Origin: Patescibacteria group bacterium
Lineage (GTDB): Bacteria; Patescibacteriota; Minisyncoccia; Phycocordibacterales; GWA1-40-21
NCBI GenBank assembly: GCA_018968925.1
Contig: JAGWZI010000006.1
Location: 1-34,579, forward strand
Length of the DNA: 34,579 bases
Reading direction: 5' to 3'
In this document: piece after piece, positions 10,390 to 25,429 of the stretch
Position numbering within the stretch: position 1 is the stretch's first letter
How the letters are laid out: each line of letters begins with the position of its first letter
Made by a program: the position numbers and the translations under genes
The notes under the pieces: model-generated
What the model was told of the DNA's origin: nothing
Database searches by the model: none
What the model saw: only the letters and a program-made list of their open reading frames with translations

Positions 10390-11049
10390 TTATTCTGCGG
10401 ATTTCTCCGATTTCTCCTTGACCTCTTCCTTCGCGTCGGCAAAGAGCACGGCCGGCTTTTTCTTGGCAAACGCCGAAAGCGCCATGACCGCCGCGCGGGC
10501 GATGTTGAGCTTGTTCTTTGACGGCGAGACGATTTTCGCCGTCACGTCCGTGATGCCGGCAAGCTCGATGACGTTCTTCACCGCGCTGCCTGCCGAGACG
10601 CCGCGGCCCGGTGCCGGGATGATCATGACGCGACCCGAGGAATATTTTGCCGACACGTCGTGCGGAACGGACATCGATTTCGTGAGCGAAAGCTCGACGA
10701 TATTTTTTTTCGCGCTCCGGTACGCCTTGTCGATGGCGGCCGAGGTGTCGTTCGCCTTGCCCGTGCCGACGCCGACGGAACCCTTCCTGTTGCCGATGAC
10801 CATGGCGATCGAGAAATTCATGCGCTTGCCGCCTTTCGTGACGCGGGTGACGCGGCGGATATTCAAAATTTTCTGGTCAAATTCCGGCTTCACGCGCTCC
10901 GGGCGGCCTGCGCTCGGGCGACGGTTCTTCGGACGATCCATGCGCGGACCGCTCCGGCGCGCGAACGGCGCCTTCGGCGCGGCGTTTTCTGCCGGCGCTT
11001 GCGGCGCGGTCACGTTCTGCTTCGTTTCTGTGGTTGTCGTTTCAGTCAT
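10390..11049 (-). CDS. rpsE: 30S ribosomal protein S5
   Basis: A 219-aa S5, about 50 residues longer than usual because of an N-terminal tail (1-70) rich in Thr, Ala and Arg (APQAPAENAAPKAPFARR) and a Lys/Glu-rich C-terminal tail. The core from about residue 73 holds the S5 RNA-binding motif (ILNIRRVTRVTKGGKRMNFSI) and the GKANDTSAAIDKAYR helix. It takes part in decoding accuracy on the small subunit. It starts 4 nt after rplR (TAA-TATC-ATG). An alternative TTG five codons upstream would overlap rplR and is less likely. Confidence 0.96.
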   Translation of the reverse strand: MTETTTTETKQNVTAPQAPAENAAPKAPFARRSGPRMDRPKNRRPSAGRPERVKPEFDQKILNIRRVTRVTKGGKRMNFSIAMVIGNRKGSVGVGTGKANDTSAAIDKAYRSAKKNIVELSLTKSMSVPHDVSAKYSSGRVMIIPAPGRGVSAGSAVKNVIELAGITDVTAKIVSPSKNKLNIARAAVMALSAFAKKKPAVLFADAKEEVKEKSEKSAE

Positions 11050-17871: not shown

Positions 17872-20800
17872 TTAGTTGGTGACGGACGAAACGTTCGTCG
17901 GATAGTTGAAGATCGAGGAACCGGTCAGGCCAGACTCTGCCGAGTTGCCCTGAATGTCGGTCCACAGGAAGTTCGTGCTCGACGCAAGCTGTGTAGCGAG
18001 CGAGAGCGTACCAGCCGTAGCGGCGTAGTTCGTCGGGTTCACCTTGATCCTGAAGGTCTGTGACGTGCCAGCCGGAATGCGGTAACCAGTCGACACTCCG
18101 TTCAAGAACGAAATGTAAACGGTGGCATTCGCGTTGTTGCTGACAGCGATCGTACCCGTGGCCTGCGTAACCAGAGAATTGTTCTGGTCGTAGACGCCAA
18201 CCGTCTGGGTGCCGATCGAGAGCGAACCGCCGTTGGCCGCGATGGTAACAGGCAACTGATCAAGATTGATGTCGCCTGCCGCATCCGCTGAAACCGTAAC
18301 GTCGGCAACTTCCGTCGTACCGGCAAGCGTTGCGCCAGCCGGAGTCGATACAGTGACCGTCGGCTTCGTAGCCACGAGCTTCATCGTGTTCGACGAGATG
18401 CTCAGACCCGAATTGGTCTGGATCGCGCTCGAGCCATTCTGCGATTTGACGAGAGTGAGCTTGAGCGTGCTCGAGGAGTTATCCGTCGAGAGACCGTTGA
18501 GACCGACCGTGTTGTACTTGACCGAGACCGGGATATTCACGCCGGCGAATCCAGCCGGAACCGAGATATTGAGACCGGTAACAATCGCCGTACCGGACGC
18601 CATCGGGGCCGTAACGCCGCCGACAGTGACCGAAACGATCGTGCTGTTGTTCTCGGTGTTCGCGAAGTCCATCTCCGTGATGACCGCAGTGCCGACCGAG
18701 GACGTCGCGTTGTAGACGACGACCGGGAAGGACGAACCGCCAACGACGTACTGAGCCGTCGGAGACGTGTTCACGATCGAGCCATTGATGCCCGTCGCAC
18801 CGGAAGCAACCGTGATCTGCTGACCCGTCGCGGCCGCAGGCGTGATCGTCAGGTTAGACGTCATGCCGCGAAGCGTCGCGGAGAGCGTGGTCTGGATGGT
18901 CGCCGTCGACAAAGTCGTCGTCGAACCGCCAGTCATGTTTGCACCGGACACCGTGACTGTACCACCGGTAGTACCAGTGTTCGTCAAAGTGTAGTTCGAA
19001 CCAGAACCGCCCGTCGTCGACGTCAATGTGATGACTGCTGACGAAGTGCCGATCGAGAGCGAAGCCGTAACCGGCGACGTCGATGAGCCATTGATGACTG
19101 AAGTCAACTGGCTCGCGACGTACGCGTAGCTCGAGCTTGCTGCCGATGACGTGAACTTGAACTGCTGGCCGTTCACGTTGACCTCGGCAATCATACCGCT
19201 ATCAAAGTAACCGGAAACAGTCGCCGTACCTGTGGACTTGGTAAGGGTCGGGGTGGACGGAATCGCACCGACATCCGCAAAGACGTCGATTTCCTTGGTC
19301 AAGTTCGAATTGATCGTGTCATTGACCGAGAAGTTGTTCGTCGCAGACGGCGCCGCAATGGTGTTCGTCTGTTCCGTCGTCCTCAAGTTCGAGAGCGACG
19401 TGAGCGGAAGCGTACCGGTGATACCGAGCGCCAAGCTCGTGAGCTGGACGTTCTCATTCGCACCGGCCTGGATCACGAACGAGCCGATTTCCTGGTTCGC
19501 GGTGTTCGCGAGGATCGACTGGTTCGAGTACGCCGCGTTCTTCGACAGGGTCACTGCCGCAGTGCCGAGCGTAATGGCATTGCTCGTGATCGTCGTCGAC
19601 GGGATCGTCGAGAGCGAGTTCGAGGTCATGCCCTGGGCGTTGTTCGTCGTACCCGAGAGCTGGACAGCGACGCTGCCGCCCGTGTAGCTACCGAACGCCG
19701 AGTTGATCGTGTCAGCCTTCACCGTCAGGGTGACTGTCTGGCCGGCCTGGACCGTCAAAGACGAGCCGAGGTTGTAGGTCAGAGTCGTACCCGTCCAGTT
19801 CTGGAGCGTGCCCACCTGGGCGCCGTTCACATAGAGACCGACGTTGTTGAGGGATGACGTCGCGCCCGTTGAAGCGGTCGCATTCGTCAAAACCGGCTGA
19901 ACCTGGATCTGCGAGATCTTCACCGCCTCGCCGTAATCAGCAAGGGTGTACTGCGCGATCGCGACGTTCGTCGAACCGCCAGTAATGACCGTCGGATTGA
20001 ACGACGGATCCTGCTGAACCACGATGGAACCAGCATTGATGCTGATCGTGCCAGCGCTGTTCTGCGAGAAGGTCGAATTCGACTGGTTGGTGATCGCCGC
20101 AACGTAGACGCCCTGGAGCTGCGAATCCGCAAGCATGATGTCCGCCTGATTCTGGAGGACAAACTGGCCGCTGTAATTCGCGCCGCCGACGATGTCCGCG
20201 TGGACCTCGATCGTGTGGCTGCCCGTGGTCAGGGTGTACGGAGACGCCGAGAGATCAAAGACAACAAAGCTGTTGGCATTGATGCCCGCGGACGTTCCGA
20301 CTTTCGAACCGTCGACGTAGAGGGCGAGGTTCTGGAAGGCCGACGGATTCGCCGAGCCGATGAACTTGAGCGTCAAAGCGTTCAAGTAGACCGAGCGCGT
20401 CGAGACCGAGACCGGAACCGACCATACGTTGTAGTTCATCGTGCCGGCATTGACCGAAGAATTCGCAACATTGTTGGAATCCGATCCGCCGCCGAGAAGA
20501 ACGCTCGCCGGATTCGTAGCGCCGGCAATGTTCTGGGTCGAGCCAGCAACGTTGACGTTCACCGCCGCCGTCGCACCCGAAAGGGTGAGAGACGTGAGAG
20601 AAACGCCGACCGTGCCGCTGCCCTGGCCCGTCGCGATGTCAGCCCGGACGGAAACCGTCATCGAGCCGTTCACCATGAAGAGACCGTTCGGGTTCGAGAA
20701 GCTGATCACACCGTTTGCGACCGAAGCCGCATCCGTGAGACGGGTGGCACCCTGGTACAGATAGACGTTGTTGAGCGTGCTATCCGACGAGACGCCGGTC

Positions 20801-21444
20801 CGCTGGAGGACAACTTTCGTAACCGTGCCGGTTCCCGAGAAGACGTACTGCGCGAGAAGCGCCGTAGCCGACGGAGAAACAACGGTCGAGTTGACCGGAG
20901 ACGTGGCCGCAAGAGCGACCGAGACCGAGCCGGCCGAAGTGACCGTGCCAGACGTCGAGCCGGTCGAAACCGACACGCCGCCCGCCATGCCGTTCACGAT
21001 AGCGCGAGTCTTCGGACCGAAGTAACCAGCCGCCGGCGAAATCTTTTCCGCCGCCTGGAACTTGGCGAGAGCCGCTTGCGTGAGCGAGCCGAAGTAACCG
21101 GTGTTGTAGCTCGCGCCGAGATCACCCTGAGCGATCAGGAAGTTCTGGAGAGCCGTAACCGCCGCACCTTTCGAACCGATCGTGAGATCGGACGTGAAAG
21201 TGTATGACGATGTCATCGCCGGAGCCGACGTCGTGGTCGTCACCACCGGAGTGCCGGTGAGAGACGCTTCAACGTTGGCGATCGTTCCCGCATCCGCCCC
21301 GAAGGACTGGAGGAGAGAAACGATGGCGCTGACCTGCGCCGAGGTAAGAGCGGCCGCCTGAGCAACCGTCATACCGACCATCGAGAACGTCATTGCCAAT
21401 GCGACAGCTGACGTAGCCAATGTTTTTAAACCAAATTTTTTCAT
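17872..21444 (-). CDS. S-layer-like surface protein with peptidoglycan-binding domain
   Basis: A 1190-aa exported protein. Residues 1-31 are a signal peptide (MKKFGLKTLATSAVALAMTF..., cleavage after AQAA). Residues ~83-151 form a PG_binding_1 domain with the paired motifs GYFGSLTQAALAKFQ and GYFGPKTRAIVNG. The remaining ~1000 residues are Ser/Thr/Val/Gly-rich beta-sandwich repeats with recurring phrases such as NVGLYVNGAQVGTLQNW and NLALYVDGSKVGTS. This architecture, a wall-binding head plus a long beta-rich body, is that of abundant CPR surface-layer proteins (inference). Its own terminator and a long structured upstream region suggest a separately controlled gene. It contains few charged residues and no enzyme motif. 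SecY further left would export it. Confidence 0.8.
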   Translation of the reverse strand: MKKFGLKTLATSAVALAMTFSMVGMTVAQAAALTSAQVSAIVSLLQSFGADAGTIANVEASLTGTPVVTTTTSAPAMTSSYTFTSDLTIGSKGAAVTALQNFLIAQGDLGASYNTGYFGSLTQAALAKFQAAEKISPAAGYFGPKTRAIVNGMAGGVSVSTGSTSGTVTSAGSVSVALAATSPVNSTVVSPSATALLAQYVFSGTGTVTKVVLQRTGVSSDSTLNNVYLYQGATRLTDAASVANGVISFSNPNGLFMVNGSMTVSVRADIATGQGSGTVGVSLTSLTLSGATAAVNVNVAGSTQNIAGATNPASVLLGGGSDSNNVANSSVNAGTMNYNVWSVPVSVSTRSVYLNALTLKFIGSANPSAFQNLALYVDGSKVGTSAGINANSFVVFDLSASPYTLTTGSHTIEVHADIVGGANYSGQFVLQNQADIMLADSQLQGVYVAAITNQSNSTFSQNSAGTISINAGSIVVQQDPSFNPTVITGGSTNVAIAQYTLADYGEAVKISQIQVQPVLTNATASTGATSSLNNVGLYVNGAQVGTLQNWTGTTLTYNLGSSLTVQAGQTVTLTVKADTINSAFGSYTGGSVAVQLSGTTNNAQGMTSNSLSTIPSTTITSNAITLGTAAVTLSKNAAYSNQSILANTANQEIGSFVIQAGANENVQLTSLALGITGTLPLTSLSNLRTTEQTNTIAAPSATNNFSVNDTINSNLTKEIDVFADVGAIPSTPTLTKSTGTATVSGYFDSGMIAEVNVNGQQFKFTSSAASSSYAYVASQLTSVINGSSTSPVTASLSIGTSSAVITLTSTTGGSGSNYTLTNTGTTGGTVTVSGANMTGGSTTTLSTATIQTTLSATLRGMTSNLTITPAAATGQQITVASGATGINGSIVNTSPTAQYVVGGSSFPVVVYNATSSVGTAVITEMDFANTENNSTIVSVTVGGVTAPMASGTAIVTGLNISVPAGFAGVNIPVSVKYNTVGLNGLSTDNSSSTLKLTLVKSQNGSSAIQTNSGLSISSNTMKLVATKPTVTVSTPAGATLAGTTEVADVTVSADAAGDINLDQLPVTIAANGGSLSIGTQTVGVYDQNNSLVTQATGTIAVSNNANATVYISFLNGVSTGYRIPAGTSQTFRIKVNPTNYAATAGTLSLATQLASSTNFLWTDIQGNSAESGLTGSSIFNYPTNVSSVTN

Positions 21445-21694: not shown

Positions 21695-21957
21695 TTAGCG
21701 AACAAAACGTAAAAACTGTTCGTCTGTATTTCTGCCTATTCTATTGTCAAAGTTCTCGACCGCTGACAACAGGGCTTGAGCGAGCCCGAAATCAGAATGA
21801 CGGCATATGGCGGTATTCGCATACCGCCGAAACTAGGCGGTAGAACCCCGCCCAGTCTGAGATACGAATAACACTTCGAACGAAATGCAACTCGCGTCTC
21901 GCAAACAATTATATATGTTGCCAAAATAACTGGCAAAATATATATCTGTGGATAACT

Positions 21958-22075: not shown

Positions 22076-22918
22076 TTAAGCGAGAAAATATTTTGACCAG
22101 CGGCGCTCGCCCTCCTTTTTCAGGATTCCTTTTTCCACGAGGCTCGCAAGCTCACGCTGAATGGTCTTGTCCGATACTCCTTTGATATTCTTCGCAAAAT
22201 CCTTGATAGTAAGGCGCTTTCCATCTGAGAGCATGGAGATAATGACCTCTGAACGGTTATTTTTGTCCTTTACTGATTTATGCTCGGCTGTCGGTTTCAT
22301 TACGGACATTTTTTCGGTATTCGATTTTTTCCGTATGTCCGTTACAGACGTTTGTCCTTGAGAAATATTTTCCATCGAGGTTGCGCCGGGTTCAGAGACG
22401 GACGGCGCGGGCGTGCGCAGAATATCGGATACGGCCTCAGGTTTGTAATCATACGATTCGGCGAACATGTCTTTCGGGAACGCGATTTTCGCCGAAGAAT
22501 AGTTCGATGACGATTCTGCCAAAAACTGCATCAATTTTCCAAGCTCTTCCGCGATGATGCGGTGATTCATCTGCGAGATCATTTTTGCCTGCTCGGCGAC
22601 ATCAAAGAGCACCGACATCTCGCACAGTGCGCTTGCAAGATTCTTCTGGCAGGTTTCCTCGCTCCATGTCCGTTCGGACATAAGGAGCGCATTCGAGAGC
22701 ATATCGGTTGCAATACCGCGAAGCTTTTCTTTCATCGGCTCCCTATCAGACATGAGACCGGTCAGAAGATAGATGGCCCGAACGATCCGTTCGGTCTTCT
22801 TGAAAACAAAAAGACCATACGAGTCACCGGCAAAAAGACGGTCAATGTCCGTTTTCACCATCTTGCCGTTCTCTGCAGAAACGGCGACAATATTGGTTTT
22901 TTCATTGTTCTCGGGCAT
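22076..22918 (-). CDS. Transcriptional regulator with C-terminal DeoR-type winged helix
   Basis: This is a 280-aa protein. Residues 1-150 are mostly helical and contain FKKTERIVRAIYLLTGLMSDREPMKEKLR and a second helical block (CEMSVLFDVAEQAKMISQMNHRII). A low-complexity linker follows (about 165-220), then a winged helix at about 223-280: RSEVIISMLSDGKRLTIKDFAKNIKGVSDKTIQRELASLVEKGILKKEGERRWSKYF, which is DeoR-like. The N-terminal half matches no family I can name. It is divergent from ftsK across 279 bp. TGTCCGTT/AACGGACA sites are unusually dense inside this gene and its upstream region, suggesting autoregulation (inference). No SD is seen; a CATAAT -10 candidate lies 11 nt before the ATG. 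Confidence 0.7.
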   Translation of the reverse strand: MPENNEKTNIVAVSAENGKMVKTDIDRLFAGDSYGLFVFKKTERIVRAIYLLTGLMSDREPMKEKLRGIATDMLSNALLMSERTWSEETCQKNLASALCEMSVLFDVAEQAKMISQMNHRIIAEELGKLMQFLAESSSNYSSAKIAFPKDMFAESYDYKPEAVSDILRTPAPSVSEPGATSMENISQGQTSVTDIRKKSNTEKMSVMKPTAEHKSVKDKNNRSEVIISMLSDGKRLTIKDFAKNIKGVSDKTIQRELASLVEKGILKKEGERRWSKYFLA

Positions 22919-23079
22919 ATTCGTCTTTTATTATGTTCCCTTGTAAAATGAAGGTTATTTGAAATTGTCCTTTTCTTGTCCGTTATAGGTAATCAAAGAC
23001 ACAGTAATGTTGCAAAGATATTCTATTATGTCCTATAGAATTTGTCAAATATTGCTATGGGTCATGAAACGGACATTTG

Positions 23080-23197: not shown

Positions 23198-25429
23198 ATG
23201 GCAAAACAGAAAGAAAAGACGCGGAAGAACGACGCAAAAGAGAGCTCGTGGAGCCGGGTGAAAGGCGAGACAAAGCAGGCGATCATCGCCATCGCCTTCC
23301 TCGTCCTTTTCGTGATTTTCCTGCTCGCCGCCTTCGGCAAGGCCGGCATGGTCGGCAACCAGCTCTATACGTACCTGTCCGAGCTCCTCGGCATCGGCTA
23401 CTACCTCATTCCTCTCTTTTTCCTGATGCTCTCGATCTCCTTCTTCCGGGCCGAGGAGAAGGAATTCAACCGGATCAAGGTGGCGGGCGGTCTCCTCTTT
23501 TTCGTCTCGGGTCTCGGTCTCATCGATCTCGTCTCGCGCACGTATTTCACGGCATCGGGCGGCTGGCTCGGACATATCATTTCGACGCCGCTCTTGAACC
23601 TGTTCAGTTTCGCGGCAAGCGCGGTCATTCTCATCGCGCTCATCATCATTGCCTGCCTCGTCCTCTTTGAGACGCGTCTCACGGTCGAATCGATCATGTT
23701 CTGGAAGAAGTGGCAGAAGAAAGAAGAACCGGAAGACGAAGAAAAAGACGTACCGATCGTCATGCCGGAAGAAAAGCCGTTACCGGTGGGCAAGCCGGTG
23801 AAAGAGCCCGAAGAAAAGCCGGAGAAAAAATCGAAAGGCATATTTGCCAAGAAAGACGACGAAGAGCTCAAGGTCGCCGACCGCGTCATCCGCAATTCGA
23901 GCTACGCGCCGCCGCCGATCTCCTTGCTTGAGGACGACAAAGGCCGCGTGGTGTCTGGCGACGTGAAGGCGAACGCGAACATCATCAAGCGGACGCTCGC
24001 GAACTTTGGTATCGACGTCGAGATGGACGAGGTCTCGATCGGCCCGTCGGTCACGCGCTATGCCTTGAAACCTGCCGAAGGCGTGAAGATCTCGCGCATC
24101 TTGGGACTGCAAAACGATCTCTCGCTCGCCCTTGCCGCGCATCCTCTGCGCATCGAAGCGCCGATCCCCGGCAAGTCGCTTGTCGGCATCGAGATCCCGA
24201 ATTCGGTGAAATCGACCGTCGGTCTCGCCTCGCTCGTCTCGGCGGATGAATTCCAGAAATCCGACAAGCCGCTCCTCATCACCCTCGGTCGCGGCATTTC
24301 CGGCAAGTCGCACTATGCGAACCTCGCTAAGATGCCGCACGTCCTCGTCGCCGGCGCGACCGGATCCGGCAAATCGGTGACGATCCACGCCATCATCACC
24401 TCTCTTCTCTATCGCAATTCGCCCGAGCAACTGCGCTTCATCATGATCGACCCGAAGCGCGTCGAGCTTACGCTCTACAACAAGATCCCCCACCTGCTGA
24501 CGCCGGTCATCACGGACGCCAAGAAGACCATCCTCGCCCTCAAATGGGCGACGAAGGAAATGGACCGCCGTTATGACGTGCTTGAGTCGCACGCGGTGAA
24601 AGACATCGATTCGTACCATAAAAATGTCCTCGCCCCCGCCCTGAAAAAGGCCGAGGAAGCCAAAAAAGGCGGCAAAGGTAAGGAGCCGGCCGACCTGCCG
24701 GAAGCGATGCCGTTCATCGTCCTCGTCATCGACGAGCTCGCCGATATCATGATGGCCTATCCGCGGGAGCTCGAGGCCGGCATCGTCCGCCTCGCCCAGA
24801 TGAGCCGCGCCGTCGGCATCCACCTTATCCTCTCGACCCAACGTCCGTCCGTGAACGTCATCACCGGCATCATCAAGGCGAACATTCCGACCCGCATCGC
24901 GCTCCAGGTCGTCTCGCAGATCGATTCGCGCACCATCCTCGATACGACGGGCGCTGAGAAGCTCCTCGGCGCGGGCGACATGCTCTACCTCGGCGGCGAG
25001 AGCGCGAAACCGGTGCGCATCCAGTCGGCGTACGTTTCCGAAAAGGAGGTGAAGGATGTGGCAAAATACCTGGCAAACGCGTACAAGGAAGAGCTCATCG
25101 GCGGCGAGATCGATCTCGGCGGCGACACGGGCGGCGGCGAAGGCGGCGAAAGTTTTGGCGGCGAGATCGATGGCGACGATGACGAGCTCTATATGCAGGC
25201 AAAAGACGAGGTGATGAAAGCAGGTAAAGCGTCGACCTCGTACCTCCAGCGCAAGCTCCGCATCGGCTATGCCCGGGCGGCACGGCTCATCGACCTCCTC
25301 GAGCAGAAGGGTGTCATCGGTCCGGGCGACGGCGCTAAGCCGCGCGAAGTGATCGGCGGCGAGAGTACTCCGAAAACGGACGCCGAAAAAGAAGCGGAGA
25401 ACCTGCACGAGGACGGCGATTATCTCTAG
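23198..25429 (+). CDS. ftsK: DNA translocase FtsK/SpoIIIE
   Basis: This 743-aa septal DNA pump clears and resolves chromosomes during division. Four transmembrane helices occupy about residues 27-155. A charged Glu/Lys/Pro linker follows (about 168-225). The motor has VAGATGSGKS (Walker A, about 383-392), FIMIDPKRVELTLYN, Walker B VLVIDELADIM (about 507-517) and STQRPSVNVITG. The C-terminal winged-helix gamma domain (about 666-730, YLQRKLRIGYARAARLIDLLEQKGVIGP) reads polar KOPS-type sites. It has its own extended -10 and is followed after 3 nt by an Ig-like membrane protein gene and then recA. Confidence 0.96.
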   Translation: MAKQKEKTRKNDAKESSWSRVKGETKQAIIAIAFLVLFVIFLLAAFGKAGMVGNQLYTYLSELLGIGYYLIPLFFLMLSISFFRAEEKEFNRIKVAGGLLFFVSGLGLIDLVSRTYFTASGGWLGHIISTPLLNLFSFAASAVILIALIIIACLVLFETRLTVESIMFWKKWQKKEEPEDEEKDVPIVMPEEKPLPVGKPVKEPEEKPEKKSKGIFAKKDDEELKVADRVIRNSSYAPPPISLLEDDKGRVVSGDVKANANIIKRTLANFGIDVEMDEVSIGPSVTRYALKPAEGVKISRILGLQNDLSLALAAHPLRIEAPIPGKSLVGIEIPNSVKSTVGLASLVSADEFQKSDKPLLITLGRGISGKSHYANLAKMPHVLVAGATGSGKSVTIHAIITSLLYRNSPEQLRFIMIDPKRVELTLYNKIPHLLTPVITDAKKTILALKWATKEMDRRYDVLESHAVKDIDSYHKNVLAPALKKAEEAKKGGKGKEPADLPEAMPFIVLVIDELADIMMAYPRELEAGIVRLAQMSRAVGIHLILSTQRPSVNVITGIIKANIPTRIALQVVSQIDSRTILDTTGAEKLLGAGDMLYLGGESAKPVRIQSAYVSEKEVKDVAKYLANAYKEELIGGEIDLGGDTGGGEGGESFGGEIDGDDDELYMQAKDEVMKAGKASTSYLQRKLRIGYARAARLIDLLEQKGVIGPGDGAKPREVIGGESTPKTDAEKEAENLHEDGDYL

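Follow-up and report, generated by a model that had tools for sequence, protein, structure and literature searches.

A Patescibacteria regulator gene covered with putative binding sites, and a candidate role for its product at the replication origin

Our analysis of a 34,579-nt stretch of Patescibacteria DNA (hereafter the window) points to an autoregulated protein that probably binds the chromosomal replication origin, where it would compete or cooperate with DnaA. The features behind this reading are short sites gathered in arrays, codon-level selection for them, their phasing on the DNA helix, their adjacency to DnaA boxes and their nearness to the minimum of GC skew; we infer that the protein encoded beneath the main array binds the sites, multimerises, represses itself and controls initiation. 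Almost every sampled member of a large Patescibacteria order has the regulator, and we surmise that it may help set when these cells replicate their chromosome.

A site array over the regulator gene

The regulator gene (22076..22918, minus strand; an ORF of 280 aa) is the divergent neighbour of ftsK (23198..25429, plus strand), with which it has a common site-bearing intergenic region; recA follows downstream of ftsK. A first-pass annotation had placed six sites of one 8-mer, TGTCCGTT/AACGGACA, over this gene and towards ftsK. All six lie where it put them, but only 5 are exact (at 22336, 22667, 22846, 22977 and 23068), the site at 22302 differing at one position (ATGTCCGTA, minus strand, 22301-22309). 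These 5 exact copies and 1 near-copy fall within 775 bp and the rest of the window holds 2, at 10666 and 33876, in line with the earlier estimate of about two; the total of 7 was never reached in dinucleotide-shuffled versions of the window (mean 1.06). The whole genome (579 kb) carries 26 exact copies vs. 8 for a reversed-pattern control, so that 5 copies in ~740 bp make a strong cluster. Within the regulator gene, the core ACGGACA was observed 4 times vs. 0.79 under synonymous-codon shuffling (P=0.0018) and all motif variants together 7 times vs. 2.1 (P=0.0002), with the variants occupying all three codon phases; the earlier statement that protein sequence is not the cause of the sites thus held.

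A position weight matrix was made from orthologues, with a hit threshold of >=8 bits, and 13 of the 18 hits in the window fall within 22166-23077. The strongest at the locus begin at 22334 (GTAACGGACATA, 22334..22346, minus strand, 17.1 bits, the highest score in the window), 22975 (TATAACGGACA, 22975..22987, minus, 17.0 bits) and 22262 (TAAAGGACA, 22262..22274, minus, 15.9 bits). The second of these is a leader site, 11 bp from another leader site, AAAAGGACA (22964..22976, minus, 12.7 bits). Further minus-strand sites are TCAAGGACA (22351..22363, 13.1 bits), AAAACGGACATT (22844..22856, 12.6 bits) and TATAGGACAT (23027..23039, 13.7 bits), which sits within the presumed promoter spacer, while the opposite orientation is taken by TTACGGACA (22298..22310, 13.1 bits), which corresponds to the site at 22302, by TCAAAGACA (22991..23003, 12.5 bits) and by GAAACGGACAT (23065..23077, 13.9 bits), the latter lying towards ftsK. 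The palindrome ATGTCCG-TT-CGGACAT (22666..22681), once considered the key site, was set aside, as it fits the order-wide motif poorly and is absent from the hits of >=8 bits.

Whether the sites persist in orthologues has a divided answer, in that the exact 8-mer is rare there, but a wider motif, TAAARGACA, is densely present, the gene and its upstream region being full of TAAAGGACA/TAAAAGACA and the leaders yielding the consensus T-A-A-A/T-R-G-A-C-A. On this comparison the exact 8-mer is one lineage's version of the broader motif, with AACGGACA as its likely counterpart in the GC-richer genome of the window. Over 81 orthologous loci, the motif is enriched ~20-60x across the promoter, leader, first codons and disordered-linker codons, with sharp edges, and AAAGGAC is enriched 61x relative to flanking DNA. 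The density of AARGACA reaches 10-14/kb in the 200 bp preceding the match start and in the linker codons, is near background within the conserved-domain codons, and outside the locus is at the background itself (0.28/kb sense, 0.11/kb antisense). Many regulator promoters carry TATAATGGACA, some with a mirrored TGTCC ahead of the -10 box.

Selection on the coding sites acts at the nucleic-acid level, as is directly visible in the codons. Among the 81 genes there are 339 sense sites vs. 119+-9 in synonymous-codon shuffles, using all three frames, and 128 antisense sites vs. 40+-6; in addition, KG[QH] is spelled AAAGGA in 69 of 75 cases, the expectation being ~19%. Given this codon-shuffle excess and AAAGGA usage, we regard the recurrence of KGQ, KGH and IKD in the linkers as a side effect of the sites. 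Chance, composition or a constraint from the protein sequence, in whose favor one can say that Lys-rich linkers prefer AAA-containing codons, is a virtually negligible explanation, refuted by the synonymous shuffles, the enrichment in non-coding leaders and the reversed-motif controls.

The spacing of leader sites peaks at a period of 10.25-10.5 bp, the best among all periods of 5-25 bp (76 non-redundant leaders, jitter null: z 4.8, P=0.0015 over all periods), and this helical-repeat phasing favors protein-DNA binding. The leader sites are also strongly sense-biased (about 22:1 in the last 100 bp), a bias that a DNA model explains incompletely. Together with the confinement of the sites to the transcribed region, this bias is what speaks for an RNA-level element, in which AAAGGACA/AAAAGACA, recurring along the mRNA leader and codons, would be read as RNA for translational control or decay. 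We hold such an element to be very improbable, as it is opposed not only by the phasing but also by the excess of antisense sites over codon shuffles, the fact that sites run both ways at the predicted origin as well as in a convergent intergenic stretch, and the overlap of sites with -10 boxes and DnaA boxes. The first-pass annotation had proposed that the sites are operators of the encoded regulator, spread across its own gene; the bounded array, the codon-shuffle excess in both orientations and the phasing give this proposal comparative support, but the presumed operators also occur elsewhere in the genome.

Architecture and distribution of the encoded protein

AF2 models the regulator as a bundle (residues 33-139, pLDDT ~98; codons 22502..22822, minus strand), a linker (residues 140-218, pLDDT <60; codons 22265..22501, minus) and a winged helix (residues 219-280, pLDDT ~94; codons 22079..22264, minus, with a near-invariant SEKTIQREL...GERRW). 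In orthologues the bundle codons hold few sites and the codons of the disordered linker are dense with them. With Foldseek, the top PDB matches of the N-domain were 2gsc and 2rld of the S23 family, with 4dwl (Avd) also listed, at a probability of 1.00 and a TM normalised to target of 0.74-0.84, the best E-value being a modest 1.8e-3; the C-terminus matched ArsR/HxlR/BlaI-type winged helices. At the sequence level, the bAvd Pfam model matched 2 of 30 regulator members weakly (best E 0.054), and a PDB sequence-profile search returned no match for the bundle and only a marginal one to penicillinase repressor. We therefore describe the N-domain as a predicted S23/Avd four-helix-bundle fold of the pentamer type, weakly backed by sequence. 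It shares this predicted fold with the S23/IVP/bAvd proteins (Xcc0516, 2gsc; BT_0352, 2rld; Bordetella phage Avd, 4dwl), but in the regulator a winged helix is attached to the bundle through a long linker, and the loci read showed neither a diversity-generating reverse transcriptase nor an rRNA insertion around the regulator gene. To go by the title of Lin et al. 2006, as cited in PMC10053308, Xcc0516 consists of five four-helix bundles. A five-headed binder with loose linkers would suit arrays of loosely spaced half-sites.

The initial assignment of the protein to the DeoR type had to be abandoned. Its C-terminal winged helix does resemble those of DeoR-type as well as ArsR/HxlR/BlaI-type proteins, but the DeoR family has an N-terminal HTH followed by a sugar-phosphate-sensing domain, whereas here the HTH lies at residues 222-268 of 280, behind an S23/Avd-like bundle, the Pfam matches stay below threshold (HTH_DeoR, 19.2 bits against a cut-off of 21), and the domain scans gave no match to the DeoR effector (sugar-binding) domain. 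No receiver (response-regulator) domain appeared in the Pfam/NCBIfam scans either, and we found in the regulator no ligand domain or receiver that would account for a change in activity. A LexA/SOS regulator was rejected on the grounds that no LexA family is among the matches and that 60 of 98 relatives carry LexA-like genes distinct from the regulator's. A replacement of ParB, or a centromere role, was likewise rejected, with ParB present in 57 of 60 relatives and some 60-180 kb lying between the regulator and dnaA or the origin region.

Of 98 relatives from one order, 90 have an orthologue, as do 156 of 286 genomes at class level; for the remaining 8 of the 98, a single-sequence search found no regulator, a search by which divergent copies could have been missed. 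Outside the class, in a wider sample of the phylum, most matches comprise the winged helix only, of ~350-aa proteins. The named relatives are mostly Taylorbacteria, Zambryskibacteria, Nomurabacteria and other Paceibacterota/Parcubacteria MAGs, and the Patescibacteria that host the regulator are ultra-small, reduced, mostly uncultured and mostly host-dependent.

DnaA boxes and the predicted replication origin

A perfect DnaA box, TTATCCACA, the only one in the window, lies 3' of the regulator gene (21947..21955, minus strand). The same arrangement, with a perfect box <=500 bp after the gene, was seen in 65 of 78 orthologous loci, where box density over the 250 bp directly after the gene is 2.55/kb vs. 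a background of 0.047; of the distant class members, 19 of 20 likewise have a box 3' of the regulator. All 67 boxes examined for orientation have the same direction, facing the next gene, and are followed by TATAAT-like hexamers at roughly -10 spacing, and therefore the box may serve the promoter of the next gene. In the window that gene, at 17872-21444, encodes a surface-type PG_binding_1 protein of 1190 aa, and the promoter of a surface protein may be under the control of DnaA.

In matrix scans of three whole genomes (G013, G014 and G060), the largest clusters were at the regulator gene and the other clusters that recurred were in the xth-cca-tRNA-yraN region, with a reversed-matrix control yielding almost only pairs. 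The window's own genome has an xth-side target too, CCTGTCCTTTATAAAGGACAGG adjoining xth. Directly 3' of xth, site density is 10.3/kb vs. 0.67/kb for the control (30 xth loci); in several of the genomes read this target is a convergent intergenic stretch, and the sites of this second locus run in both orientations. As to gene neighborhoods, xth adjoins xerC/xerD-like recombinase or yraN (UPF0102) genes at four loci (L225, L231, L227 and L347), and ftsK adjoins the regulator, so that in some genomes each partner of the FtsK-Xer pair has a site array nearby.

The idea that the sites are restricted to the regulator locus did not survive, since the predicted origin region has the motif too, either directly beside DnaA boxes or overlapping them. 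Of 297 genomes, 105 contain a composite element, TTATCCACA-N-TGTCYTT, for which the reversed control gave 2 hits, and in 84 of the 111 hits listed the motif follows the DnaA box after a gap of 3-4 bp. A fused element, TGTGNATAAARGACA, is a DnaA box whose end doubles as the start of a site; it was found in 77 of 297 genomes, with 78 hits vs. 1 in the control. In exact form the fused and composite elements thus reach 26% and 35% of genomes, respectively, and TGTGGATAA-N11-TGTGTATAAARGACA or a near form is common to several of them; the fused element of the window's genome is degenerate only. When on the same contig as xth, composite elements lie at a median of 191 bp from it (31 of 32 within 11 kb) and fused elements at a median of 2.7 kb (25 of 26 within 11 kb), the ones far from xth being one composite element in G007 and one fused element in G045.

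GC skew was examined in the three genomes scanned above. In G013 the cumulative minimum is at 83,510, 378 bp from the fused element at 83,888, and the only cluster of >=3 DnaA boxes in that genome (83,868-83,999), which contains this element, is interleaved with sites. In the other two the minima lie 6-10 kb away: at C5:160,312 in G014, with sites and boxes at 166.2-166.3 and 170.3-170.4 kb, and at C2:149,994 in G060, with sites and boxes at 159.8-160.35 kb. From these positions we predict that oriC corresponds to the xth-cca-tRNA-yraN region, away from dnaA.

The composite element resembles a promoter (TTTACA...TATAAT) at L316:3054-3483 and 3' of xth in L319-L378, where a putative unannotated transcript of ~200-300 nt would have the boxA-like GTTCTTTGA as well as a hairpin resembling a terminator; Rfam searches beside xth gave tRNAs only and no known RNA. 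A plain transcriptional autoregulator would repress its own gene, and perhaps ftsK, and act at xth on the promoter of an unannotated RNA, with no part in replication. The centering of the array on the regulator's promoter and leader agrees with this, as does the site pair 3' of xth that overlaps the promoter-like element ahead of the hairpin, but it leaves unexplained a DnaA-box-overlapping site found about once per genome near the origin, the fixed 3-4 bp spacing from DnaA boxes and the match with the skew minimum in G013, and we judge it rather unlikely. We consider it improbable, too, that the sites belong to another binder, either DnaA itself through a second, low-affinity class of site or some other factor, which the array would titrate in the manner of datA or which would regulate the gene. 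DnaA boxes do stand beside sites at both loci, TGTCCTTTA and TGTGGATAA agree at 5/9 positions, and, among the 8 relatives without a detected regulator, at least four (G032, G091, G068 and G084) retain composite or fused elements; on the other hand, the edges of the array line up with the gene of the regulator and that gene's leader, dnaA does not figure among the listed site clusters of the genomes scanned, and the motif is unlike any DnaA box.

Proposed mechanism and known systems

We postulate that the C-terminal winged helix of the autoregulated origin-binding protein recognises TAAARGACA (AACGGACA in the GC-richer genome of the window), that the N-terminal four-helix bundle brings together several copies, probably five, and that flexible linkers allow each multimer to hold several half-sites. 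The regulator would then occupy the arrays on its own promoter, leader and codons, including over the -10 box, and so limit its own synthesis, and it would also bind the xth-cca-tRNA-yraN origin region. One predicted site there overlaps a DnaA box (TGTGTATAAARGACA), and therefore the regulator and DnaA should exclude each other at this position; another lies 3-4 bp after a DnaA box, at the promoter-like element (TTTACA/TATAAT), where exclusion of DnaA, cooperation with it or control of transcription would all be possible. By analogy with known systems, we favor inhibition of initiation, rather than activation. We see about an even chance that this is an undescribed class of replication-initiation regulator, a multivalent and probably pentameric S23/Avd-winged-helix protein that gates DnaA at oriC through one overlapping and one 3-4 bp-spaced site and limits itself through half-sites in its own codons; that evenly balanced estimate covers jointly the view that its disordered linker is shaped by a DNA code. 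The linker also offers a clear example of closely packed regulatory sites imposing the residues of an unstructured protein segment.

The arrangement of the predicted sites recalls Spo0A (B. subtilis), CtrA (Caulobacter), AdpA (Streptomyces) and HP1021 (Helicobacter), which have oriC sites overlapping DnaA boxes. For Spo0A, CtrA and AdpA this overlap results in competition, and HP1021 also competes with DnaA (reviewed in PMC4285127). In contrast to Spo0A, CtrA and HP1021, the regulator has no detected receiver domain, and it differs from all four in its unrelated family, its S23/Avd-type multimerisation domain, its motif, the arrays within codons, and in that its binding and its effect on replication are predictions from sequence. 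One can also liken the array to datA, DARS and iteron loci, in which site density is tied to initiation; these are chromosomal or plasmid loci, dense in binding sites and linked to initiation control. Unlike theirs, the regulator's sites are not DnaA boxes, and they cover the presumed binder's own gene, down to the codons. In the open-licence literature we found no paper on the DnaA boxes or origin of Patescibacteria, or on replication initiation with DnaA in them, and the timing of their chromosome replication appears undescribed there; our analysis contributes a candidate protein and its motif, an oriC predicted to lie apart from dnaA, and an element in which DnaA box and operator are fused.

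A regulon spread across many promoters was considered and rejected, as the three genomes scanned contain very few other clusters. In G014, six strong sites of mixed orientation (C5:171642-171743) lie directly upstream of an MscS-like channel gene near the predicted origin, and three strong sites (C5:99991-100065) lie ~300 bp upstream of a gene for a TasA/camelysin-like secreted protein. Lastly, a contig end at L048:13960-13995 carries AGATGTGTATAAGAGACAG (minus-strand reading), which looks like a Nextera transposase adapter in the public assembly.
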